Positions 31,130-56,378 of a DNA stretch of 64,000 bases are shown here, in pieces. The translations under genes were made by a program, and so were the position numbers. The notes under the pieces were generated by a model. The model was not told where the DNA came from and searched no databases. It saw only the letters and a program-made list of their open reading frames with translations. Source of the DNA: Tridacna crocea. Taxonomy: Eukaryota > Mollusca > Bivalvia > Cardiida > Cardiidae. Location of the stretch: contig OX031071.1 in assembly GCA_943736015.1 (NCBI GenBank), positions 13,612,119 through 13,676,118 of the forward strand. The letters are read 5' to 3'. Within the stretch, counting starts at the first letter, position 1; the number at the start of each line of letters is the position of its first letter.

Positions 31130-31358
31130 TTAACTCTTTACCAAACGACAAATTTGTAGACTGGTCCAAATTGAAAGCATTTGCGGACGACATAATAAAT
31201 GCGACTGAAAAATTGAAATTTGGTTTGGGGAGGGTAGAAAACATTGTGGGAAAAGGAGAAAATGCTGGCTACCAGCATTTTCTCCTTTTCTCACAATGTT
31301 TTCAAAAGGCTTCTTTCTCAGGGTCGTTAAAAGTCGGGATTGTGTGGTAAAGAGTTAA
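31130..31358. mobile_element. TTAA-hairpin element, A, first of a joined pair
   Basis: Its right TTAA (31355-31358) is also the left TTAA of the next element. Confidence 0.85.
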
Positions 31359-31575
31359 CTCATTATCAAACAACAAAATTTTAGGTTTGTTCAAATTGAA
31401 AGCATTTGAAAATGACAAAATAAAAATTACTTAATTTGAAATTTGTTTTATGAAGGGTAGAAAACATTGTGGGAAAAGGAGAAAATGCTGGTTACCAGCA
31501 TTTTCTCCTTTTCCCACAATGTTTTTAAAAGGTTTAGTTCTCAGGGTCGTCAAAAGTAGGGTGGTAATGGGTTAA
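31355..31575. mobile_element. TTAA-hairpin element, A, second of a joined pair
   Basis: Same orientation as its neighbour; hairpin perfect over about 60 bases. Confidence 0.85.
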
Positions 31576-38000: not shown

Positions 38001-41000
38001 CCAGTCTAAAATTTTATTGTGTGGTAAAGAGTTAATGCATTTGCAGATAGTGTCCACCCCGATCAGCCTGGGCAATATTGGCTCGGGCTGATCTGGGTGA
38101 ATCTTTTTGCCTTTAGTTCTGTATGTCAAAGGACAACTCTACCTTATAACTCAGTTGGTTGGTAGACAAATAGATTTTATGGATCTATTATAATTATGAT
38201 GACTTGCTCGGTATGATGTACCATGGATTGCATTAACCCTTTACCCCATAAGGCGTTTCTGTGGTATCTCTAATTGATCCTAAATAACAGCAAGGATGAA
38301 GTCATTTCTTATGTGTATATGACACCCTTTGATAGCATAGAAAACATTGTGGCAAAAGGTGAAATTGCTCATGACGAGCAATTTCACCTTTTACCACAAT
38401 GTTTTCCAAAGGCTCCAACAAGTAATGCGTAGAAATGAGTATTTATTGAGTAAAGGGTTAACTCTTTTCCAAACGACAAAAACTTAGACTGGTCCAAATT
38501 GAAAAAATTTGCAGATGACAAATTAAATGTAGCTGGATTGATGACTTTAGTTCTGGATCGGGTAGAAAATATTGTGGGAAAAGGAGAAAATGCTCGTTCC
38601 TAGGATTTTGTCTTTTTCCCACGTTATTTTCAGAAGCCTTCTTTTACAGGGTCGTTAAAACTTGGGATCATGTGCTAATGGGTTAATCCTTTACCACACA
38701 AAAAAAATTTAGAAATGTCCAAACCAAAAGCATATGTAGAGATCAAATTAAATGTGACCAAAATTTTTGAAGTTGTCTTTCATAGGAAAAATGTAGGAAA
38801 AGGAGAAAATGCTGGTCAGTAGCATTTTCTCCTATTTTCCACAATAGTTTCAGAAGGATTACTTCGCAGGGGTGTTAAAAGTCATCATTGTGTGGTAAAG
38901 GGTTAAACTACCTTTTGCTAGAGCATGGGACAGTCTGTCTTCTTTGAGACAAATCTGAAGAGAAAATAATTCTTGTTTATTTTGGATAATCGATATTCAC
39001 CCAGTTTCAACTCTCTATCAGATGACACAGTTTTAGACTTGTCTAACTTGAAGACAGTAGAAGGCAGCAAACTGGATGTAGCTCAGATGTTGTGATTTCT
39101 GCTTAACCCTTTCCCAAGCGACAAATTTTGGACTCTTCCAAACAAAAAGAGTTTGCAGACGACAATTTTAGATTTGGAGAAAATGGCAGAGAGTTCTCGA
39201 AAAGGGTAGAAAACACTATGGGAAAAGGAGAAATTGCTCGTTACGAGCAATTTCTCCTTTTCCCATAGTGTTTTCAAAAGACATTTACTGCAGACACGTA
39301 AAAACCAGGGCTTGTTTGGGAAAGGGTTAACTCTTTACCACACAATCCCGACTTTTAACGACCCTGAGAAAGAAAGCCTTTGAAAACATTGTGAGAAAAG
39401 GAGAAAATGCTGGTAACCAGCATTTTCTCCTTTTCCCACAATATTTTCTTCCCTTTCCAAATCAAATTTCATTTTTTGATCCTCATTTATTTTGTTGTCT
39501 GCAAGTGCTTTCAATTTGGACTGGTCCAAAATTTTGTTGTTTGGTAAAGAGTTAAAGTTATAGGAAACATTATGGGAAGAATTCTGCTTCTCCTTTCACC
39601 TATGTTCTAAATGATGTAACACAGAATTAACTCTACCAAATGACAAAATTTATGACTAATCCAAATTGCAGTTACAGATGACAAAATGATTTGGCTCCAT
39701 GGAAGTTTTTGTCTTTGAAAGGTTAGAAAAACATGTATAGAAATCACACAATGACTCTTTGAATTCGGTAGGGAATAATTAAAACAATATGAAAACTAAC
39801 TAGAACATTTCTAGAGGGATAAAGTGTTTCTAGCTCTTGAAAAAGGCAATAGCCGAAATATTGAACAATAGAGTGTTAGTTTTCGTAGTGTTTATGGGAA
39901 TAGGATGAAATGCTGGTTTCCAGTATTTTCTCCTTTTCCAACCCTGATTACAAAACCTTCTTTGTCACAAGATCATTATAATTGGGAATTGTGTGATAGA
40001 GGGTAAAATCAGTTGACCCTCTGCCAGACGACAAAATTTTAGACTTGTACAAATTGAAAGCATTTGCAGACGACAATATAAGTGTGGCTTAGATGGTGCG
40101 AACTTTCTTTGATAGGATAGAAAATATTGTGGGAAAAGGAGAAAATGATGGTTTATCAGCATTTTCTCCTTTTCCCACAGTGTTTTCAAAGAACTTCTTT
40201 CCCAGGGTCGTTGCAAGTCGGCCTTATGTGGTAATGGGTTAATCAGCTTTTTTTACCTCCTAACATTAGCTGGTGACAATAGATGGAAACGCTGTGTGTT
40301 TGGACACCACTGATGAAAATGAGTGCAACTGGTTGTCTTTGGTTCGTCCTGCTGTTAATGAAGAATCACAGAACTGTATGGCTTATCAGCTGGGAACAAA
40401 CATATACTACAACACAACACGAATTATTTACCCTGGGGAAGAGTTACAAGTCTGGTACACTGCTTCATATGCAAGAAAGCTTAGTAAACCAGTCATACCA
40501 GATGGCATTAGTCGAGGTATAGCTGAATGGAAAAGGTTTTTTTTTTGCCTTTTTTCAAGTAATTATAAGAGCAGTACTGGTTTAATGCAGAGAAATGACC
40601 CTCCCCTACAGAATGACCCGTGGGTCGTTTCTCTACGTAGAGGAATGACCAGGGTCATTATTCTATGTAGAGAAATGACCCCAGACGGTCATTTCTCTAT
40701 GTAGAATAATGACCTGGGTCATTCCTCTACATAGTGAAATGACATCTGGGGTCATTTCTCTATGTAGAATAATGACCAGGGTCATTTTGTGGGGAAGGTC
40801 AATTCTCTGCATTACACTGGCTAAGCATTGCTGCTAGCAGTGCTTTGTTTTTCTATTGAAAACAGAATTTCAGACTTACTCATATTAAATGCAGTCACAG
40901 AGAATTCATGAATAGTGTCTCAGATGAAAAGGGGGAATGAGAAAACATTTTGGAAAAAGGAGAAAATGCTGGTTACCAGCATTTCCTCCTTTTCCCACAT

Positions 41001-44000
41001 TGGTTTCAAAGGCAATTTTTCCTTGGGGGGTCAAGGAATGTAATTGTTTTATTAAAGATTACTTTTTCATCCTTTTTTATATTTAATTTCCAAAAGAATC
41101 TACAAATGTCACAGTAGTTTGAGCTCTAGATATTTAATCCATTATGCCTAGTTTTGATCCCTATTGGTGTCCACAGGAAATTACCTTCCTGGATGAGACA
41201 CTGTAAATATTAAATCTTTACCAAATGACAAATTTTTGGACTGGATTAACTTGAAAGACAACAAAGTAAAGATGAATAAAAAATTGAAACTTTATTTTAG
41301 AAGAGTAGAAAACATTGTATAAAAAGAGAAAATGTTGGTTACCAGCATTTTCTCCTTTTCCCACAATGTTTTCTAAGACCTTCTCTTTCAGGGTCATTAA
41401 AAGACGGAATTGTGTGGTTAAGAGTTAAGTCCAGTAATGGTTAATTCTATATGAACCCATTCATTAAGGACTTACTGGCAATATTGTTTAACACTGTGCA
41501 CATTTTGCAATTGTAATACCGGTAGTTATGATTACATAAGTGGTCCCTATTTCAATTATCTTCACATAAAGGGCCTTTTATATAAGAATCAAGATAAAAC
41601 ACTTTACGTAATGCACCTTTTTTGTAAAAACAAAGATAAGATGCTTTATATAATGAGCCTTTTACATAAAAATCAAGATAAAAGTCTTTACATAGTGAGC
41701 CTTTGGCACAAAAACCAAGATAAAAGCCTTTACATAGTGAGCCTTTGACATAAAAAGCAAGATAATAGCCTACACATAGTAAGCCTTAACATAATAATCA
41801 AAATTCTTTACACAGTGAACCTTTGACATAAAAATCAATGTAAAAGCCTTTGCATAGTGAGCCTTTGACATAAATTCAAGATAAAAGTCTTTACATAGTG
41901 AGCCTTTGACATAAAAATCAAGATAAAAGCCTTTACATCAAGATTAAAGTCTGTACATAGTGTGCCTTTGACATAAAAATCGAAAGCCTTACATAGTGAG
42001 CCTTTGACGTAAAAATCATGTTAAAAAAGTGGGAGGCGGGGGGGGTTTGTTAAAATCAGTTTTTTTTTTTTAAGATTTTATTTATGTGTGATAAATCAGC
42101 TTGTCTGAAAACATAAAAAATGACACTTGAAGTTTATATCCTATAATCTCTTATTTTTCAATAAATGCCTTATTTTGTTCAAAACAATGTTGACATTAAC
42201 ATTAATCTTACTATGGGCAAAAAAAAACTGTATATGCATTTTCCACAGACTTGTAGTTCACCTCTCAAGGCAAGTAAGAATTTGTTCAATTTTAGTTAAA
42301 TGGCCTATGGACATGTAATTTGTATGGGAGTGACTACACCAAAAGTTTGGCTGACATGATGTTGAACCTCTTTAACAGAAACAGGCTCCCTGTCAGATGT
42401 CTGCCTTCAAGCATTGACAAATTATCTCTTCTTAACCCTTTACCAGACGACAAAAATTTTGCATTGTCAAAACTGAAAGTGTTTGCAGATGACAATTTCA
42501 GTGTGGCTCCAATGGTGCAAAACTATCTTTGATAGGATGGAAAACATATTTGGAAAAGGAGAAGATGCTAGTTACTGGAATTTTCTCCTTTTCCCACAAT
42601 ATTTTCAAAAGGCTTCCTTCCCATGGTCATGTAAAATGGCATCGTGTGGTAAAAGGTTAACTCTTTACCAAACAAAAAAATTTCATTAGACTTGAAAGCA
42701 TTTGCAAATGACAAAATAAAAGTGACTCATAAATATTGACATTTGTTTATAAGAGGGTAAAAATCATTGTGGAAAAAGTAAAAAAAAGTTGTGCTTATCA
42801 GCTTTTTCTTTTCCATAATGTTTTCAAAAGCCTTATTAATCAGGGTCATTGAAACTCGAAATTTTGTATTGAGGGGTTGTATGGTATGTTTGTTAGGTTT
42901 AACCCTTTTCCACACAATGACGCCTTTTAGAGAGAAGCTTGTCGGAAACATTGTAGGAAAAGGAGAAAATGCTTGTAACCAGGATTTTCTCCTTTTTCCA
43001 TGTTTTTTACTCTATCAAGGAAAAATTACGTCATTTGAGCCACTATGAAATTGTCGTCTGCAAATGATTTCAATTTGGATAGGTCTAAAATTTTGCTGTG
43101 TGGTAAAGGGTTAAATATCTGTTCTGTCTTTAGGAAGACTTGGCAAGGGGATATTTAGTCTCGTTTTTGGACAGTTTCAATTAAATTTCAGCCTTACTTG
43201 GACACAGAATAGAGCCATTACCAACTGAACTGATTTTTGAACCGCCGGCTGATCGTGTAACGAAGAACTTGCCAAATTTACACCAGACGCAGAATGTCTC
43301 TCCTAGTACAGTGAGTACTCTCCACATGTTGTGCTGGGCTATTTTCGAAGAAAAGGTCCATTTATTGTCATAGCCCTGTTGTCATTGCTATGTCATCATT
43401 GTGGGAAAAATTTTATTTTATTGTATTTTTTTTATTACTCAAGACATTTATTTTGAACTTGCTCTAGTTTTCAACTATCAAAAGGGGAATTCGTTCAACT
43501 TATTCTAGTTTTCGACTATCAAAAGGGGAACTTGTTCAACTTATTCTAGTTTTCATCCATCAAAAGGGGAACTCATTCAACAGGGGAGGTACCCATCAAA
43601 ATTCCTTTGATACAGGTATGTCCCTTTTTCGACTCTGAACTTTTCACAGTAAACTACACCTAGTCTACTTGTATTTCTAAAAGCAACTGCATTTGAGCAC
43701 TTGATATGCTGTGCTTTGTTATCTTTGTGGTGTCTTGCAGTAATCTGCCTAAGAAAATGTTGGAAAGAGAAATTTTGCTCATCATGGGTAATTTTTTTTT
43801 TTCTGCTTCTTTGCTGTACACATAATCATCTACTACACCTTATATGGGCTTATCAAGATTTTATGCCATAGTTTAATCTTTTAACCACATGACAAGATTT
43901 TTGACCTGTCTGAATTGAAAACATTTGCAGATGACAGTTTTAATGTGGCTCATATGAAATGATTTTTCTTTGATAGGGTAGAAAACATTTTGGGAAAAGG

Positions 44001-47000
44001 AGAAAATGCTGGAAACCAGCATTTTCTCCTTTTCCCACAATGTTTTCAAAAGCCTTCTCTTTCACGGGTGTTAAAAGTTATCATTGTGTGGTAAAGGGTT
44101 AGAGTATTTATAAAACATAGATAAGTCAGAGTTAACTCTTTGTGAAAGGGTAAGGATAGAAAAAATTAACTATCAAAACATGTGATTGGATTTTGCGAAA
44201 AGATATTTGAATAGTTTGTGATGATACTATTCTGTGATGATAACTAGCAGAATCCAGTAATTCACAAACTCTGTATTTCCAATTTACAGCATTATTAGAC
44301 GCAGTTTGAGATAATGAAGATCAAAAAGATGGAACTGTTAGCACGAATATTATGTATTCATTTTTCATAACCTTTTTTTTTTTTAAATGTAGGTTGAGCA
44401 AGAGAAAAGAGGAGAACTAAAGAAAGCTTTTTACTGTCCAAGATGTGGGAGTTGCTTTCCATCACAAACATCAATGGTACAGCATCTGAGAGAACACGTG
44501 ATTTCAGGCTCTAAAACTGTTTTGACTAAAACACGGAAAAGAGGCAGACCTAGAATATATCCTATAACAGGTTGGGGCTTTTTGGTCAGCTTTTGATTAA
44601 CCTATTACCACACAATCTCTGCTTTCCCTGAGAAAGAAGTCTTTAGAAAACAATGTGGGAAAAGGAGAAAATGCTGGTAACCAGCATTTTCTCCTTTTCC
44701 CACAATGTTTTCTACTCTTCACAAAATGAATTTCAAATTTTTAGTCACTTTTATTTTGTCATAGATCTGCAAGTGCTTTCAGTTTGGACAAACCTGAAAT
44801 TTTGTCATTTGGTAATGAGTTAATTGTATGATTGACACAATCAGGTGCATCTATACATGCTTTCCTGGAGTTTCTTTCACCAGGATTTCACACAATATTC
44901 CTTTTCACTTTTATTTATTCTTTAGCCACTATTTGCTTTCCCACTTAACCCACGTCAAAATAATGATCATTGAGTCCTGTCACAATGATTATCACCAATC
45001 CTCAGAAAGATTTTGTACATATGAGCCACACTGAATGTGTCTTCTATAAATGCTTTAAATCTAGTCCATTCCAAAGTTTTGGTTGTTTTGTCTTTACCAG
45101 ATGACAAATTTGTGGACTCATTGAAATTAAAAGAGTTTACAAATGACTAAGTAAGTGTCACTCAAATGACAGTACTGGTCTTTAGTAGGATAAAAAACAT
45201 TGTGAGAAAAGGAGGAAATGCTGGTTACCAGCATTTTCTCCTTTTCCTACAATGTTTTCAAAAGGTTGTTTCTTCAAGGTCATTAAAACGTGGAATTGTG
45301 TGGTAAAGAATTAAAGAGTTTTAACGAGACTTTTATCTTAACCAGGCACCATTGAACCAATCATCAAAAGACCAAGAGGAAGACCTCGTAAGATCAAGAA
45401 ACTAGATGATGAATACACAGGCACAGATGTAAGTGGGGATGTTTCAGAACTATATGTATCAGCTATTAATGATACTACCAATGTCGAAAATACTGCAGTC
45501 AGTGAAGAGTATGATAAAGTAATAAATGGAGATAAGGGTGATTTTGATCATGCTGATGATGACACAACATCGAAAGAAGTAAAGATAGAAGAAGGGACTG
45601 ATGATAAAAAAGACATTGATTATTCACCAGTAAGCCAGCCATCATCTTCCAGTCGCAGAGTACAACCCAGAAGAAGTATGAAAGGTACAAATAGACACTT
45701 GATGAAAGATTATATTGTCAGCAAAGTAAAAATAGAGCAACCTGACGTTTCCATTGTTGAAGAGGCTACAAGTGAACAGCATGCTTCTGATCCTCTACTT
45801 CTTCCAAACTTTGGTAATGAGAAGAAAAAGAGAGGGAGGCCAAAAAAAATGAATCCAGTTGATACAATGGCTGGAAATCCAAAAGAGAAACAAAAATTAA
45901 ATGTAAATGTGGCAGAGAATAAGGATCAAACTGAAGATGGAAATGAGTCTGATCATCCTGCAAATATGGATTTGACTGAGGCAGAGCAGAATGATAGTCT
46001 AGAGGTCAAGGCAGAAGATGAGGTAAGCAGATATACTGGTGAAACAAGAAAGGACAGTCCTGAAATCCAGACTGCTGAAAGAACAGATGGTCCTACAGAT
46101 ACAGATAACATGTCAAATAAAGAAGATGAAAATGAAAATAGCAGAGACAATGTTACAAGTACATATGATACAACAAATACAAGCACTAAAAATACAGATG
46201 AGAATAAAACAAAAGAAGTCGATACTATAGATAACGGTAAAGTAGTGATTACAATTGCTGTTGAAAAGTCAAATTTAGACAATAAAAAAGACTCAAATAT
46301 TGCTGTAGAAAACAGCAATTTGAACAATGGAGGAGATGCAGCAAAATCAGAAAATGATGATATCAGTACATTAGACAGATCTACAGAAGCCAGTTTTGAC
46401 CTAAAAAAAGTCAGTTGCAATGATGAAAATCAGGTTAGAGATTCAATACAGAAAGAACAAATCAATAATGAAAATCAGCTTAGAGATTCAATACAGAAAG
46501 AACAAATTATAAAACTTAATGATGGAAATGGCATGTATACTTGCAATGACAATGATCTACTGGCTAACAAGCATGTTCCAAGTCATGATCAATTACTGCA
46601 GAGTGACATTCTAAATGAGACTGAATCAAAATCAAAATCACCTGGGTCTAAACTGACCAAAAACAAGAAACCAAGTATAGCTACTCGAAAAGGAAAGAAA
46701 GCTGATAAACCAAAACTTGATGAATCAAATGAGGGACCTTTTCCTTGTGATATTTGTCATCAAGAATTCAAAACAGCACAGTATTTATATAGACACATGG
46801 TCATGCATACAGATATGTTTAGTTGTAGAGTTTGTCTAAAAACATTTTCCAGAAAGGACTCAATGCAAAAGCATGTGTTGAAATGCTGTCCAAGCGAAGC
46901 AGAAAAGATGAAAATATTGCACTGTGATTTATGCCTACGTGTTTTTTCAACGGCATCTGGTAGGAAAAAACACATGAAGCAGTGCACATTGGTACAATGT

Positions 47001-49091
47001 TCAACTTGTGGTTGTCGATTCAATTCAAAAGAGGACTTAGATGAGCACAAATGCAGAGAGGGAAGGTCAGAAGAGGTTGGTTTAGGTAGATACAGTTGTG
47101 GAAAATGTCCCAAATCCTTCCAATCTCTACATTACCTGAAACAACATTCTTTAATTCATACAAAACTGCATGCATGTTCACATTGTGGAAAAAGTTTGCC
47201 ATCCCAGGAAGAACTAGAAAGCCATTTACTGACTTGCCAGACAATGGGAGCAATTAAGTTATTAGGACAGGGGCGATGTGAGAGATGCGGGGAAATGTTT
47301 AACAGTGTGAAATCATTTCGGGAGCATGCTCTTTCACACACACATCCCTACCAGTGCAGTCATTGCTTGAGAAGATTTGTAAAGGTTGGAACATTATCGA
47401 ATCACGATTGTTCAAACAACCCAGAAAATTTTTCTTGTCAGATGTGTTCAAGGTCATTCAAAAATCAACAGAGTTTAGACAAACACATCAAAGCACATGG
47501 ATGCATGAGATATCAATGTTCTGCCTGCGAGCAGCGATTCAGAATGAAATCAGAAGCACGTGACCATAAATGTGAGGCTGAAAACCAGGAAGATCGCACA
47601 ATCTTGTATACTTCAGACAGTACAGAAGTGTGTGCAGTGTGCGGGAAATCCTTTTCAACAAGGAGCAATCTACTGAAGCACATGACCCTTCATGGAGAGA
47701 AAAACTTCCCTTGTCCACATTGTGAGAAGCGTTTCCACCTGGATGTTTACCTTAAGGAGCACATTACAAGCGTTCATTATAAGATTTATAAGTATCAATG
47801 TCAAGATTGTGGGAAATTGCTCAAGTCCAAAACTGGATTTAACATGCATGTCTCCCTGTTTCACAGACCTATTGTGGAAAGTTTTCCTTGTACAGAATGT
47901 CCAAAAATATTTAAGTCAAAAGGAAACTTGAAGGCTCACATGTATAGACATTCTACAGATAGAAAATTTAAATGTTACATTTGTAATCGAGCTTTTAAAT
48001 TCCCAGATCAGCTTAGTCGCCATAAAGTGGAACATAAAATAGTGGAGAAACTTGGTTGTATGTATTGTGAAAAACAGTTTTGTCGTAGATATGAGCTGAA
48101 ACGGCATTTACAAATATATCATAGTGGTTACGTTTATGTCTGTGGAATTTGCTCTGCAAAATGTGGTCACAGACATACTTTAGTCAGACACTACAAGCGC
48201 AAACACCAGGAGGACTATCATCTGCTATCTCAAGAGGGCTATTTGAACAGTTTAATGAAACATGTAAATGAACTGGCGGCCATGAAACAAGAGCCTGTAG
48301 CTGAACCAACTCGCAGAATACCAACTCTGCTGAAGCACAACAAACCAAATAAGCTTCTATCAAAAAGTGCAGTAAAGTTACCAGAAACTGCAGTAAAATC
48401 TTTACAAAGTATGTCTGTAGAGACATGTACCTTAAAAAGATATCAACTTTATAAAGGTGATGGGACAATGAAACTTGATGAAGCACCTGCACAACAGATA
48501 ACAGTCGCTAGTGATGGGTCTGTTTTACTAGCCCAGGATGGCAACATCCTTCAGCCACAAGCATTACTGGCACAAGAGCAGCTCCTCACACCTGCTGATG
48601 GACAAATTTCAGCGCCATGTGTCAATGAGCAAATTGGTCTAATTCAGACAACAGATGGCACCATTAACATCAATAATATCCAAGGTTTACCACAAACACT
48701 TGAAACATTGGAAGGCAGTGAAGGACAAATAGTTATACTTCAGATCGTCGAGTCCTCAGATCCCATTAACACAGACATTCCTCCAGGAGAGATAATCCAA
48801 CAAATAAAAGTTGAAGCAAATGATCCTGTTAATATTCAACAGGGTGACCTTCCAGAAATAAATGGAATACAGCAACTCCAAATGGGAGCTTCAGACCAGT
48901 TACAGATTGTGAATTATGCCGAGGGCTTGAACGTTGTTGATATTTCGGAAGTAAAGGAAGTGGATGGTGAAATGTTACAGATTCAAAATGTGATAAATGA
49001 ACAGAATGAAGAGACAGTTGATGATAGAACTGATGATGTATTACAAGTTGTTCAGGAAGAAGTGAGTGAAAATGAGACAGAAATACTGTAA
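34982..49091 (+). CDS. PRDM15: PRDM15-like PR-domain zinc-finger transcription factor, seven coding exons
   Basis: Exons 34982-35027, 36620-36713, 37544-37706, 40270-40516, 43192-43310, 44393-44570 and 45346-49091 join in phase with GT-AG introns: 1,530 residues. Order: N-terminal zinc knuckle C17-C20-H24-C29 (CDVCGEDH ... LCPEL); PR/SET domain at about 47-175 (TRARLTLP, TQFGPFEAKR, ENECNWLSLVRPA, ELQVWYTASYA), missing typical SET catalytic motifs as in most PRDMs; one C2H2 finger at 237-258; AT-hooks at 272-277 and 290-298 and a third-like one at 442-451 (KKRGRPKK); a long acidic Ser/Asn linker; 17 clustered fingers at about 748-1236, several ending in Cys; a Gln/Ile-rich acidic tail. TQFGPFE and the zinc knuckle followed by CPEL point to PRDM15, with PRDM10 the closest alternative. 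PRDM15 acts in the nucleus as a sequence-specific regulator in early development. Confidence 0.85.
35172..36170. mobile_element. ~1-kb interspersed repeat in PRDM15 intron 1
   Basis: Starts TAGCTCCGCTGGCCTAAGGC with GCCCGGTGTCCGTGCGTGC, ends GTGGAGCGATACAGGGCC / ATGGCCCTCTTG. Inside, a segment with AGCCATAAGGCCTAGGGCTA repeats imperfectly two to three times. A reverse-oriented partial copy is at about 53100-53460, and a fragment of the end at about 12590-12625. I know the GGTGTCCGTGCGTGCG start as common in bivalve DNA; class unknown. Confidence 0.6.
36276..36510. mobile_element. TTAA-hairpin element with partial duplication
   Basis: TTAA left; hairpin good; the right half is broken and CCACCCTTTGCAATACACAT occurs twice (about 36409 and 36481). 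Confidence 0.65.
36620..36713 (+). CDS. PRDM15: PRDM15-like coding exon 2 (zinc knuckle)
   Basis: Acceptor TTATATTTTGTAG, donor CCAG|GTATAG. Codes for CCDVCGEDHSTELCPELGEI and HIT. Confidence 0.85.
36855..36950. repeat. Short direct repeats GGCTGCTGT
   Basis: GTGTACAGCAGCCAGTTAAG followed by two TTGGCTGCTGT copies; a CAGCAGCC / GGCTGCTG foldback within intron 2. Confidence 0.4.
37544..37706 (+). CDS. PRDM15: PRDM15-like coding exon 3 (first half of PR domain)
   Basis: Acceptor CTGTTTCACACAG, donor AAG|GTACTA. From ARLTLPSYLEV to TGFFTLK; the AG of exon 2 completes Arg. Confidence 0.88.
37807..38035. mobile_element. TTAA-hairpin element, subfamily A
   Basis: TTAA both ends, 100 bases after the exon 3 donor. 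Its right TTAA reads on into TGCATTTGCAGATAGTGTCC, the AAGCCCCC/GTCAGCC repeat. Confidence 0.85.
38036..38232. repeat. GTCAGCC repeat segment between two TTAA-hairpin elements
   Basis: CCGATCAGCCTGGGCAA facing GGGCTGATCTGGGTG, then ATGTCAAAGGACAACTCTAC. Both of its ends are TTAA sites occupied by hairpin elements. Confidence 0.55.
38233..38461. mobile_element. TTAA-hairpin element, C, first of three joined
   Basis: Inverted relative to the copy at 14785; shares TTAA 38458-38461 with the next. Confidence 0.85.
38458..38686. mobile_element. TTAA-hairpin element, A-like, second of three joined
   Basis: Core CTCGTTCCTAGGATT shows the palindrome decayed; shares TTAA 38683-38686 with the next. 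Confidence 0.8.
38683..38906. mobile_element. TTAA-hairpin element, A-like, third of three joined
   Basis: TTAA both ends; core GGTCAGTAGC. Confidence 0.8.
39103..39330. mobile_element. TTAA-hairpin element, B, joined to the next
   Basis: Hairpin perfect, with CACTATGGG matched by CCCATAGTG (other copies have CACTGTGGG). Shares TTAA 39327-39330. Confidence 0.85.
39327..39555. mobile_element. TTAA-hairpin element, A
   Basis: TTAA both ends; one mismatch in each outer arm. Confidence 0.85.
39627..40008. mobile_element. TTAA-hairpin element split by a short foldback
   Basis: The right end decays to GATAGAGGGTAAAA. Between about 39786 and 39888 sits an insert with ends GAAAACTAAC / GTTAGTTTTC. 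Confidence 0.5.
40010..40242. mobile_element. TTAA-hairpin element, 27 bases before exon 4
   Basis: Right TTAA at 40239-40242. The pyrimidine tract and AG of exon 4 follow at once, so the branch point may lie in the element. Confidence 0.8.
40270..40516 (+). CDS. PRDM15: PRDM15-like coding exon 4 (second half of PR domain)
   Basis: Acceptor TTTTTTTACCTCCTAACATTAG, donor CGAG|GTATAG. From LVTIDGNAVCLDTTDENE to SKPVIPDGISR. Phase and length match the PRDM15 PR domain. Confidence 0.88.
40575..40820. mobile_element. Foldback element of GGTCATT repeats
   Basis: Ends TACTGGTTTAATGCAGAGA and TCTCTGCATTACACTGG are inverted. Inside, GAAATGACC / GGTCATTTC and GAATAATGACC / GGTCATTATTC units alternate in both orientations, giving nested hairpins. 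58 bases after the exon 4 donor. Confidence 0.75.
40855..41045. mobile_element. TTAA-hairpin element, decayed ends
   Basis: Hairpin ATGCTGGTTACCAGCAT intact, both TTAA lost. Confidence 0.6.
41210..41428. mobile_element. TTAA-hairpin element, A-like
   Basis: TTAA both ends; segment between left end and hairpin shortened. Confidence 0.8.
41568..42022 (+). repeat. Tandem repeat, 42-bp unit, about 11 diverged copies
   Basis: Unit AAGATAAAAGCCTTTACATA then GTGAGCCTTTGACATAAAAA, with some short units. Lies in intron 4 of the PRDM15-like gene. Confidence 0.85.
42432..42660. mobile_element. TTAA-hairpin element, joined to the next
   Basis: Core CTAGTTACTGGAATT; shares TTAA 42657-42660. Confidence 0.8.
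42657..42880. mobile_element. TTAA-hairpin element, decayed
   Basis: Left end CTCTTTACCAAACAAAAAAA; hairpin GTGCTTATCAGC; right end decayed. Confidence 0.65.
42899..43114. mobile_element. TTAA-hairpin element, 77 bases before exon 5
   Basis: TTAA both ends; core CTTGTAACCAGG. Confidence 0.8.
43192..43310 (+). CDS. PRDM15: PRDM15-like coding exon 5 (linker)
   Basis: Acceptor TTCAATTAAATTTCAG; two bases complete an Ala codon with exon 4, then LLGHRIEPLPTELIFEPPAD; donor ACA|GTGAGT. No domain. A further small exon between 4 and 5 cannot be excluded, but phases fit without one. Confidence 0.7.
43453..43581 (+). repeat. Tandem repeat, 41-bp unit, three copies
   Basis: CTAGTTTTCGACTATCAAAA followed by GGGGAACTTGTTCAACTTATT, three times. 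Confidence 0.85.
43873..44102. mobile_element. TTAA-hairpin element, A-like
   Basis: Left TTAA, right decayed to TTAG; core CTGGAAACCAG. Confidence 0.8.
44393..44570 (+). CDS. PRDM15: PRDM15-like coding exon 6 (first C2H2 finger, AT-hook)
   Basis: Acceptor TTTTTTAAATGTAG, donor ACAG|GTTGGG. Finger FYCPRCGSCFPSQTSMVQHL REH, then KTRKRGRPRI. Confidence 0.85.
44597..44823. mobile_element. TTAA-hairpin element, 26 bases after the exon 6 donor
   Basis: TTAA both ends; hairpin almost perfect; an extra ATAGATC occurs in the right half. Confidence 0.8.
45091..45314. mobile_element. TTAA-hairpin element, 31 bases before exon 7
   Basis: Left TTAA decayed; right GAATTAAAG retained; hairpin intact. 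Confidence 0.75.
45346..49091 (+). CDS. PRDM15: PRDM15-like coding exon 7 (AT-hooks, linker, 17 fingers, tail)
   Basis: Acceptor ACTTTTATCTTAACCAG; opens with GTIEPIIKRPRGRPRKIKK and is open for 1,248 codons to TAA. Linker carries a tandem of about 18 residues (ENQVRDSIQKEQI / ENQLRDSIQKEQI). Fingers from FPCDICHQEF to YVCGICSAKCGHRHTL; C2HC variants are the 2nd, 3rd, 4th, 6th, 8th and 10th of this exon. Confidence 0.92.
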
Positions 49092-49179: not shown

Positions 49180-49415
49180 TTAACCCTTTCCCACACAACA
49201 AAATTCTAGACCTATCCAAATTGAAAGCATTTGTAGGTGACAATATAAAAGTGGCTCAAATGGTGCAATTTTTCTTTGATTGTGTAGAAAACTTTGTGTA
49301 AAAAGTAGAAAATGCTGGTAACATGGTTACCAGTATTTTCTCCTTTTCCGACAGTGTTTTCAAAAGGCTTCTTCCTCAGGGTCATCGAAAGTCTCATTGT
49401 GTGGTAAGGGGTTAA
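49180..49415. mobile_element. TTAA-hairpin element, first of three joined, in the PRDM15-like 3' region
   Basis: 89 bases after the stop codon, so probably in the 3'UTR. Preceded by CATGCTCTGGGAAAAGGGGG, the inverted end of the AAGCCCCC repeat. Confidence 0.8.
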
Positions 49416-49641
49416 CCCTTTACCTAACAAAAATTTTTTTACACTTTTCCAAATTGAAAGCATTTGCAGATGATGAGATAAAACATTACACAAAAGTTGA
49501 AACCTGACCTTTGAAGAATAGAAAAAAATTGTGGGAAGAGGAGAAAATGCTGGTTACCTGTATTTTCCCCTCTTCCTGCCACAATGATTTCAAAAGCCTT
49601 CTTTCCCAGAGTCGTGAAAACCAGGGATTGTTTGGAAAACA
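49412..49641. mobile_element. TTAA-hairpin element, second of three joined
   Basis: Right TTAA decayed (AACACTTTACC at the join); hairpin broken by extra bases CCTCTTCCTGCC. Confidence 0.7.
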
Positions 49642-49864
49642 CTTTACCACACAACAAAATTTTAGACAGGTTCAAATTGATTACATTTGCAGATGACAAA
49701 TAAAGGTGACTGAAAAATTGAAATTTGCTCTGGGAAGGGGAGAAAACACTGTGGGAAAAGGAGAAAATGCTGGTTACCAGCATTTTCTCCTTTTCCCACA
49801 GTGTTTTCAAAAGGCTTCTTTCTCAGGGGCGTCAAAAGTAGGGATTGTGTGGTAATGGGTTTAA
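49640..49864. mobile_element. TTAA-hairpin element, A, third of three joined
   Basis: Perfect hairpin; right TTAA continues as CCCCCCTTTTCACAGAGC, the AAGCCCCC repeat end. Confidence 0.85.
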
Positions 49865-51565: not shown

Positions 51566-51791
51566 TTAACTCTTTTCCACACAATCCTGACTTAACGACC
51601 CTGAGAAAGAAAGCTTTAGAAAACATTGTGGGAAAAGGAGAAAATGCTGGTAACCAGTATTTTCTCCTTTTCCCACAATGTTTTCTACCATTTCCAAATC
51701 AAAATTCAATTTTTATTCACATTGATTATGTCGTCTGCAGATGCTTTCAATTTGGACTACTCATAGATTGTGTCGTTTGGTAAAGAGTTAA
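51566..51791. mobile_element. TTAA-hairpin element, joined to the next
   Basis: Shares TTAA 51788-51791. Confidence 0.85.
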
Positions 51792-52016
51792 CTCATTACC
51801 GGACGACAGTATTTTAGACTGGTCCAAATTGAAAGCATTTGCAGACGACAAAATAAAAGTGACTGAAAATTTGAATTTGTTTTGTGAAGGGTAGAAAACA
51901 TTGTGGAAAAAGGAGAAAATGATAGTTACCAGTATTTTCTCCTTTTACCCACAATGTTTTCTAAAGGTGTCTTTCTCATGGGCATCAAAAATAGGGATTG
52001 TGTGGTAATGGGTTAA
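51788..52016. mobile_element. TTAA-hairpin element, A
   Basis: TTAA both ends; core GATAGTTACCAGTAT. Confidence 0.85.
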
Positions 52017-53929: not shown

Positions 53930-54056
53930 TCAAATCAACTGTAAAGCACGAAGGACAGGGATTTCCACATCAACATTACTGCTGTCTTCGTTGGTAAAAT
54001 AAGCCACCCAAGTATCTCTGAACAATGCTTTATCAATGTAGCCAGGTATAAACTGC
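53930..54056 (-). pseudogene. EF-hand gene exon 2, part after the insertion
   Basis: GCAGTTTATACCTGGC reads (K)QFIPGYIDKALFRDTWVAY and continues to ALQLI, TGA. It is only in frame with the upstream part if the element is absent. Confidence 0.75.
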
Positions 54057-54285
54057 TTAACCCATTACCACACAATCCCTACTTTTGACGCCCCTGAGAA
54101 AGAAGCCTTTTGAAAACACTGTGGGAAAAGGAGAAAATGCTGGTAACCAGCATTTTCTCCTTTTCCCACAGTGTTTTCTACCCTTTCCAGAACAAATTTC
54201 TATTTTTCAGTCACCTTTTTTTTGTCGTCTGCAAATGCTTTCAATTTGGACCAGTCCAAAATTTTCTCGTGTGGTAAAGAGTTAA
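54057..54285. mobile_element. TTAA-hairpin element, A, inserted in a coding exon
   Basis: TTAA 54057-54060 and 54282-54285; near-perfect hairpin; left end CCCATTACCACACAATCCC. Its good state (few mismatches) suggests a young insertion. Confidence 0.95.
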
Positions 54286-54596
54286 AATCTCCAATGAAAT
54301 CCTTATCCAACTTATCTATACCCCAGGATCTCATGGCGACGATATATTCCTCCTTCGATATTTGCCCGTCGTTATTAACATCAAAAAGATCAATACATTC
54401 GCTCAATATCTGGTACATTCTTTTGCCAAAGGCTTCCTTGTTGTCTTCATATTCTTTAGACATCTTCTCTACGAACTCGTCAGGTTCCATTTTATCTTGA
54501 CCATGTACAAACATGGAATTCCAGAATGCCCGGAAATCTGCCTTCAACTGTGCAGCTCTCTCCTCTGACATCCTATGGTGCTTACTGAACCTGGTC
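54286..54596 (-). CDS. EF-hand gene exon 2, part before the insertion
   Basis: Acceptor TTTTTAAATTTCACAG; one base completes Ala34, then TRFSKHHRMSEERAAQLKAD to KLDKDFIGD and the first base of Phe138. Confidence 0.8.
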
Positions 54597-54814
54597 CTGT
54601 GAAATTTAAAAACAAGTGTAATATGATGGAAAAGACATACTCTACATGCAGGATGATTTGTTTTGAAGATGCGAGATGCATGTATACAAGAACCTTGATA
54701 ATTTATTGCCAAATTTGGGCAAAATTATTCAACCTATTACAGTGCATTTATTTGAAACATAACAAAGCAATTCAAACTAGATACATCTGAGCCTTGCACT
54801 GGCAAAAGTGGGGC

Positions 54815-55045
54815 TTAACCCTTTCCCAAAGGACACACTTTTGGACTGGACCAAATTGAAAGCATTTGCAGACGACAATTCAACTCTTGCTGAAAAGATT
54901 ATTTCTGTCTATGATATAGTAGAAAACATTGTGGGAAAAGGAGAAAATGCTGGTTATACTGGCATTTTCTCCTTTTCCCACAATGTTTTCAAAAGGCTAC
55001 TATTCCAGACCCGTAAAAACCAGGGATTGTTTGGGAAAGGGTTAA
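54815..55045. mobile_element. TTAA-hairpin element, D, joined to the next
   Basis: In the intron of the EF-hand gene. Hairpin with TATACTGG instead of TACC in the core. Shares TTAA 55042-55045. Confidence 0.85.
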
Positions 55046-55219
55046 ACCATTACCACACAATCCCTACTTTTGACGACCCTGAGAAAGAAGCCTGTAGAAA
55101 ACATTGTGGGAAAAGGAGAAAATCCTGGTAACCAGCATTTTCTCCCTTTCCCACAATGTTTTCCAAAGCCTTTTTCTCTCAGGGTCATCAAAAGTAGGGA
55201 TTGTGTGGTAATGGGTTAA
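55042..55219. mobile_element. TTAA-hairpin element, fully palindromic (two left halves)
   Basis: 178 bases. Left half ACCATTACCACACAATCCCT, TTTTGACGACCCTGAG, hairpin arm; right half is the complement of the same left half (GGGTCATCAAAAGTAGGGAT, TGTGGTAATGGGTTAA). The whole element is one hairpin. Confidence 0.85.
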
Positions 55220-55345
55220 CTTATTTTTATTCTTTGGAGTCTACTGGAAAAAAACTCTCTTACTCAGTTACGCAGGGAAACCATTTTCTTTTGAAGAATT
55301 AAAGGACTACAACAACATGTACCAGTATTAATATAAATTTAATGT

Positions 55346-55369
55346 TTATGTACTGTACTGTACTGTACT
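55346..55369. repeat. (TACTG)n pentanucleotide repeat
   Basis: TGTACTGTACTGTACTGTAC, four to five units. Confidence 0.9.
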
Positions 55370-55457
55370 TCGTTTTTTTTATTTTGAAGAATGGAAATGC
55401 ATGTATGGCTTAAATTTGGTAAGTTAGAAAAAATGGGGGAAGGGGTAAAAAATTAGT

Positions 55458-55641
55458 TTAACCCTTTCCAAAATGACAAATTTTGGACCCTTCTAAACCG
55501 AAACAGTTTGCAGACGACAATTTTTTTTTTGGAGAAAATGGCAGAAAGTTCTCAATAAGGGTAGAAAACACTGTGGGAAAAGGATAAATTGCTCGTTACT
55601 GCAGACATATAAAAACCAGGGCTTGTTTGGGAAAGGGTTAA
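55458..55641. mobile_element. TTAA-hairpin element, B, right arm deleted
   Basis: TTAA both ends; after ATTGCTCGTTA it jumps to CTGCAGACATATAAAAACC. Confidence 0.8.
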
Positions 55642-55760
55642 ACTATAACAGTGCATTCCTTTTTAGCATCAAAAAGCAATACAAAACAAATACATTTATA
55701 TATTACATGTATTTACATTATTTACCTGCCTGCCTGCTTATTCATTCATTCATATATTTA

Positions 55761-55988
55761 TTAACCCTTTCCCAAATGACAAACTTTTGGACTAGACCAA
55801 ATTGAAAGCATTTGCAGACGACAATTCAAATCTTGCTGAAAAGATGATTTCTGTCAATGATTGGGTAGAAAACATTGTGGGACATGGAGAAAATGCTGGT
55901 TACCAGCATTTTCTCCTTTTCCCACAATGTTTTCAAAAGGCTACTATTCCAGACCCATAAAAACCAGGGATTGTTTGGGAAAGGGTTA
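55761..55988. mobile_element. TTAA-hairpin element, D
   Basis: TTAA both ends; left arm GGGACATGGAG against CTCCTTTTCCC. Confidence 0.85.
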
Positions 55989-56277
55989 ATTTATATATCT
56001 ATTTATTATTTATTCATTTTCAATCTTTTGAGTCTATAAGAAAAATATTTTCTTACTCAATTACACAATTTTTTGTTCCGACAAATTTGTGGCTGACATC
56101 AAGCAATCTCTCCTTTGCCAAAAATGAAAATTTTAGCCTGTATGTATCACTTTTGAGATTTGTTTAAATTGTATGAAAATGTGTTTAAACATGTTACAAT
56201 ATATAATGGAAAAGTGCCAAAACCTTAGACAAATTCAATTAGACAAACAAAATTCACTGGACAAAATTAATACATAC

Positions 56278-56378
56278 GCAAATAAATCGGCATCCTCCAA
56301 AGTAATAGATCCATCTTTGTTTATGTCATTGGCTTCAAAAATAGCCCTCCATTTCTTGCATAAAAAATTGCCGGCCAT
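56278..56378 (-). CDS. EF-hand gene exon 1
   Basis: ATG at 56378 three bases after an AG (TTCTTTTTATAG), so a 5'UTR intron is possible; 33 codons MAGNFLCKKWRAIFEANDIN to DADLF plus GC; donor GC|GTATGT. Confidence 0.75.

Follow-up and report, generated by a model that had tools for sequence, protein, structure and literature searches.

Introduction

Target-site duplications of TTAA are made by piggyBac and Kolobok transposons, and the target of Sola3 elements is likewise TTAA. Kolobok termini next to TTAA are described as 5'-RR...YY-3' (PMC9587614), the terminal hallmark of piggyBac elements is given as CC[C/T]T (PMC2872659), and piggyBac is reported to insert at TTAA and to be known for scar-free excision (PMC7351741). 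The CMITEs of Acropora corals, which are piggyBac-derived, belong to the closest described relatives in kind of the element analyzed here. As described in PMC2872659, they are short and non-coding, are flanked by TTAA duplications, carry short terminal repeats and a conserved interior, occur as tandem copies and are found in the same genome as piggyBac elements with related ends.

Here, we characterize a non-autonomous DNA transposon (MITE) of 229 bp, too short for encoding a transposase, which is located within a coding exon of a Tridacna crocea EF-hand gene. Compared by description only with CMITEs, it shares the features listed above, but is longer (229 bp versus ca. 100 bp), contains a 67-base internal palindrome, is present at far higher density in our samples and, in the copy at the center of this study, interrupts a coding exon. 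A literature search judged by titles and abstract openings returned no publication on the 229-bp element, which is not proof that there is none. With a probability of roughly 0.9, we conclude that a gene similar to those of sarcoplasmic calcium-binding proteins (SCPs), otherwise intact, very recently received a piggyBac-type MITE at a TTAA in its last coding exon.

Gene and element structure

The window, i.e. the whole 64,000-nucleotide stretch of DNA that was analyzed, corresponds to C16:13612119-13676118 of a 1.05-Gb genome in 31 contigs. Exon 2 of the EF-hand gene is interrupted one base into codon F138 by the 229-bp element (Table 1). Read as it stands, the frame consists of 138 gene residues and 27 element residues up to a TAG within the element, and frame translation thus agrees with the initial annotation, which had described an EF-hand exon broken after residue 138 and continued by 27 element codons. 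Joining the flanks with one TTAA kept results in 101 + 311 + 4 + 127 = 543 nt and an open frame of 180 amino acids plus stop, confirming the total of 181 codons that had been calculated from the empty-site reconstruction. With the element set aside, there is no other stop or frameshift in the 180 codons. The assembly allele would make a 165-residue protein without the final 42 residues of the gene. Message decay is not expected since the TAG lies in the last known exon, although a later intron in the 3' UTR is possible.

Table 1. Coordinates of the interrupted gene and of the inserted element in the window (a slash marks an exon-intron boundary)
Feature	Position	Strand	Evidence or detail
Exon 1, coding part, 101 nt	56278..56378	-	EF-hand loop 1 DINKDGSI; donor GC/GTATGT
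Intron 1	54597..56277	-	GTATGT ... TTTCACAG; paralogue intron at same codon
Exon 2 up to element, 311 nt	54286..54596	-	start preceded by TTTCACAG; ends with base 1 of codon 138 (F)
MITE insertion, 229 bp including both TTAA copies	54057..54285	+	228/229 identical to copies on C6, C8
TTAA target-site copy, high-coordinate border	54282..54285		sequence
Right terminal inverted repeat (TTAACTCTTTACCACAC read inward)	54269..54285	-	piggyBac right end is TTAACTCATTACCACTC
Element-encoded codons added to F138, n = 27 (NSLPHEKILDWSKLKAFADDKKKVTEK)	54203..54283	-	codon 1 takes AA of TTAA
TAG stop in element, present end of frame	54200..54202	-	frame translation
Palindrome right arm	54146..54178	+	perfect, 33 nt
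Palindrome left arm	54112..54144	+	perfect, 33 nt
Left terminal inverted repeat	54057..54073	+	40 bases after TTAA vs. 7.2-kb piggyBac left end: 28/40
TTAA target-site copy, low-coordinate border	54057..54060		sequence
Stranded exon tail, 127 nt with original stop	53930..54056	-	with AA of TTAA, codons 139-180

The features named in the initial annotation, which had recognized a TTAA-hairpin element inside the EF-hand exon, were found at the places given there. The near-terminal inverted repeats are 17 nt long and imperfect (88%), the internal palindrome consists of two perfect arms with a 1-nt loop between them, and the termini beside TTAA read 5'-CC ... AG-3'. Several copies have a similar peptide (..LDWSKLKAFADDK..) encoded at one end of the element (54203-54283, minus strand), probably as a mere consequence of sequence similarity. 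When the palindrome arms (element positions 56-122) were compared among 56 near-full-length window copies, pairing was preserved despite changes on both sides in 31 of 1780 pair cells, compared with an average of 8.7 and a maximum of 19 in 2000 shuffles, and 177 cells were mismatched; common subfamily ancestry can explain part of this excess.

Homologues across the insertion site

As proposed in the initial annotation, the 180-residue product was aligned to SCPs. Searching the PDB with the joined protein resulted in matches to the SCP entry 9l5m (E 1e-18), to 1q80 (E 4.9e-11) and to calexcitin (4ndb, E 1.4e-5), and the protein also matched EF-hand families (PF00036 with 40.6 bits at a cut-off of 25.4). 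Judged by its sequence, the joined product is an SCP-like EF-hand protein. It is similar to SCPs (PDB 9l5m, 1q80/2scp) by structure-database match whereas the assembly allele differs from them in lacking the last 42 residues.

A search of ca. 5.8 billion proteins yielded 48 candidates, two of them at E <= 0.001. The first of these (P0001) aligned gap-free with residues 43-180 of the joined protein straight across the joint, 115 of 138 residues being identical. The stranded tail, whose frame contains no premature stop, matched P0001 at 34 of 42 residues. P0001 is nearer to the interrupted gene than to a paralogue of that gene in the same genome (101/138) and therefore probably represents the orthologue from a related species. 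The second protein (P0002, from ENA) aligned only up to residue 140 (65/100 identical) and then departs from the family sequence, and its part beyond residue 140 was given no weight for or against the join. Its likeness to the gene stops about two codons past the insertion point, and the sequence beyond that appears to have lost the frame and to contain an internal duplication.

The paralogue (C16:4274249-4274689) is encoded on the same contig and covers residues 34-180 in one open stretch with 70% identity. Its first exon measures 101 nt and is followed by a GT donor and an intron at the same codon as in the EF-hand gene, and its total length including the stop is 181 codons, the same as for the joined gene. 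The site likewise lies within a single stretch in four distant matches (L006, L008, L009 and L010; 24-29% identical), of which one contains a TGA. Among the 11 genome matches listed, L012 stops short of the site and the rest are pieces of the interrupted gene or first exons. The initial annotation had expected homologues to carry the two halves adjacent to each other, as is the case for both P0001 and the paralogue, and its reading of TTAA as the target duplication agrees with the gap-free alignment and the adjacent halves. Predicted structures of P0001 and of the truncated form had mean pLDDT values of 51.6 and 66.4, respectively (three-sequence alignments), a low confidence at which they are not evidence.

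A separate observation concerns the distant paralogue L006, where a copy of the MITE (locus positions 1938-2166) adjoins a likely splice acceptor, its end lying 14 nt away from the exon stretch that was matched (1501-1923).

Splicing of the element

Introners, like the element described here, can be MITE-like insertions within an exon, and the element could accordingly act as a new intron that is spliced from the transcript, with the full protein still being made. PMC9860276 describes published introners that derive from DNA transposons, some of them with 4-bp target duplications, and one family that adds codons to the protein. In our case, frame-restoring GT-AG pairs are formed by the donor AAG/GTGACT (first intron base 54214) with the acceptors TTAAG/ or GCAG/, after which the exon would resume at 54055 or 54052, respectively, both in phase 0. 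This donor, the CAG past the border and the poor acceptor tract had all been pointed out in the initial annotation and were found.

Enumeration of GT-AG introns of at least 40 bases resulted in 53 in-frame pairs. For exact removal, the donor would have to lie either within the element or within the final 60 bases of exon 2. Such a donor is present in 14 of the pairs, and none of these 14 removes the element exactly, which makes splicing unlikely. The best pair, which retains exon 2 completely and the tail almost completely, leaves 23 element residues beside the last EF-hand region, and its acceptor is preceded by TGTGGTAATGGGTTAA, without a pyrimidine tract. Further, stops are present in all three frames from a CTCAG in the element to the border. 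The locus thus differs from introners in offering no exact GT-AG removal and only a poor acceptor, and the splicing alternative raised in the initial annotation proved weak. We consider it very unlikely that the element is an intron.

Copies, age and state of the locus

Two other full-length copies of the MITE, on C6 and C8, are identical to the exon copy at 228 of 229 positions, and five further fetched copies at 226-227 of 229. All eight copies, the exon copy included, have TTAA at both ends and different flanks. In a genome search, the best 40 of 1363 first-look candidates were scored, and all of them (again including the exon copy) were full length and 98-100% identical. These near-identical sister copies suggest that the insertion probably happened very recently. 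When one TTAA is retained, the exon copy is the only one of the eight that sits in a stop-to-stop frame of more than 100 residues; the longest frames of the other seven comprise 33-100 residues.

A recent insertion could be one allele of a polymorphic site, the intact gene being present in other individuals or in the second haplotype. We regard this as fairly probable. The exon copy is extremely young as judged from its two closest sisters, the stranded tail is free of stops and still matches P0001, and a coral CMITE has been found as both an empty and a filled allele (PMC2872659). On the other hand, a search of the assembly returned only this gene copy and one 77% identical paralogue, with no second haplotype seen. 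A polymorphic site agrees with a recent MITE insertion into an intact gene and does not compete with it.

If the gene had already been a dead duplicate, the element would have fallen into a pseudogene, and the open-frame paralogue on the same contig could cover the function. This is unlikely given that the 180 codons contain no stop or frameshift besides the element and that intron 1 has intact-looking splice sites. Compared with the paralogue, codons 1-138 have a pN/pS of 0.19 and codons 139-180 one of 0.32, but with dS at ca. 1.5 (near saturation) these values average a long history and reflect old constraint, so that they can neither exclude a recent relaxation nor show that the gene was needed at the time of insertion. 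It is also conceivable that a repeat was wrongly joined into the exon during assembly since a very abundant family eases local assembly errors. However, the exact TTAA at both borders, the adjoining flanks in the homologue P0001 and the same border form in different flanks for all eight fetched copies render an artefact highly improbable.

Using the element as BLAST query, 193 alignments were obtained in the window (palindrome self-matches included), covering 19,012 bases or 29.7%. At least 215 of the 229 bases are covered by 56 alignments, with exact TTAA at both ends in 38 of the 56. None of the window copies is closer to the family consensus than the exon copy and one other, at 6.1%. At the left end the consensus reads CCCT and the exon copy CCCA; the right ends read CTCT. 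Abutting copies that have one TTAA in common, or nearly so, were seen at 31130-31575, 38331-38906, 39103-39555, 42432-42880, 49180-49646, 51566-52016 and 54815-55219, similar to the tandem CMITE arrays of corals, and probably arise by new copies entering the TTAA of old ones. Within an element-dense stretch, 3.75 kb without any element match hold a 1249-residue stop-to-stop frame (45342-49091) that by eye looks like a C2H2 zinc-finger protein.

To estimate the load elsewhere in the genome, twelve 3-kb stretches (L048-L059) were chosen by hand, without a random draw, one on each of twelve contigs at round coordinates. In these, 6,855 of 36,000 bases match the family, corresponding to 19% (bootstrap 9-30%). 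Matches occur in 9 of the 12 stretches, and 19 alignments cover at least 200 of the 229 bases. Extrapolation yields ca. 550,000 near-full-length copies (bootstrap 200,000-930,000). Three base-shuffled pieces of the window, used as a control, gave no family match. In 124 kb from 29 other loci, which had been chosen for genes and transposases, the family share was 11%; for this count, seven loci overlapping this gene or another locus were omitted, and the overlapping loci L031/L034 and L032/L035 were both counted.

Candidate source of transposase

Of the superfamilies associated with TTAA, Kolobok was rejected as the origin because the MITE termini are 5'-CC ... AG-3' and not 5'-RR ... YY-3'. 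The exon copy starts with CCCA and has CTCT at its other end, and thus departs from the CC[C/T]T hallmark of piggyBac. The 7.2-kb piggyBac element described below departs from it likewise, and AmiPB4, in the table of PMC2872659, also starts with CCCA.

The genome contains 118 listed matches to the transposase profile PF13843, of which 20 loci were cut out, so that a better partner than the one identified here may exist. One family, a 7.2-kb piggyBac element, is present in three copies (L034-L036) that are 99.6-99.96% identical over 7.2 kb, each with an intact transposase open reading frame of 486 amino acids. Two of the three have TTAA on both sides while the third is without TTAA at its left border. 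The encoded protein matched PF13843 with an E-value of 2.6e-88 and, in the PDB, the piggyBat transposase 9c0f (9.1e-40) as well as 6x67/6x68 (3.7e-36), entered as Transposase and presumably the piggyBac transposase. Its aspartates in the motifs VDE, FDN and GVDxxDQ, which we take to be the catalytic ones, align with those of piggyBat. The TTAA target is common to the MITE and the piggyBac superfamily (piggyBac, piggyBat), to which the likely partner transposase is linked by its matches to PF13843, 9c0f and 6x67/6x68; unlike members of that superfamily, the MITE is too short for transposase coding.

The ends of the 7.2-kb element (CCCATTACC / CTCATTACC; terminal bases CCCA and CTCA) resemble those of the MITE. 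After TTAA, the left end of the MITE is identical to that of one 7.2-kb copy at 28 of 40 positions, a value reached by none of 20,000 single-base shuffles. At the right ends, 14 of the first 15 bases including TTAA are identical, and over 40 bases the count is 16, which 641 of 20,000 shuffles reach. Four other piggyBac families (L016, L019, L025 and L026), in which TTAA repeats are clear and the subterminal sequences differ, were rejected as partners. The best of 16 end comparisons with them was 19/40, for the left end of the MITE against the right end of L016, a value that 46 of 20,000 shuffles attain. The ends of L020-L024 and L028 are those of L019, the ends of L027 are those of L026, and L018 has an end like that of L019 on the left only. 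L014, L015, L017 and L029 showed no clear pair of ends. L030 and L033 look like members of the 7.2-kb family, having the same MITE pattern. On the basis of these comparisons of the ends, the 7.2-kb piggyBac family is the probable, but not proven, partner that would move the MITE.

The 7.2-kb element itself contains MITE matches that sit like nested insertions: one copy of full length (92% to the consensus), another at 66%, and several fragments.

Conclusion

The mechanism is most likely the ordinary transposition of a MITE of the piggyBac type. A transposase of the piggyBac family, in all likelihood that of the 7.2-kb element, would bind the MITE ends and join them to the TTAA in the exon, repair would then duplicate the TTAA at the insertion site, and the gene product would from then on consist of 138 + 27 residues. 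If the MITE behaves as piggyBac elements generally do, its excision could leave the gene restored and free of a scar. An empty allele may exist, and seamless excision may occur. With TTAA on both sides of the insertion and a piggyBac transposase present whose frame is intact and whose element matches at the left end, a reversible switch of the gene is conceivable, in which the MITE would leave the exon scar-free in some germ-line or somatic cells and individuals or tissues would be mosaics of the 165- and 180-residue proteins; we consider such a switch to be quite unlikely.

As a kind of event, a MITE insertion into an exon is ordinary. The present case is unusually clean and comes from a very abundant family, and its intact context, recent date and family abundance lift it above the routine: for one broken exon, it was possible to find relatives that lack the interruption, sister copies that are nearly identical and a transposase that is the probable source. 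The family is remarkable in being abundant while the best-scoring 40 copies are still 98-100% identical to the exon copy, and if our sample is representative, a very large share of the 1.05-Gb genome would belong to this single MITE family. The site may be used for asking whether seamless excision repairs genes in nature.
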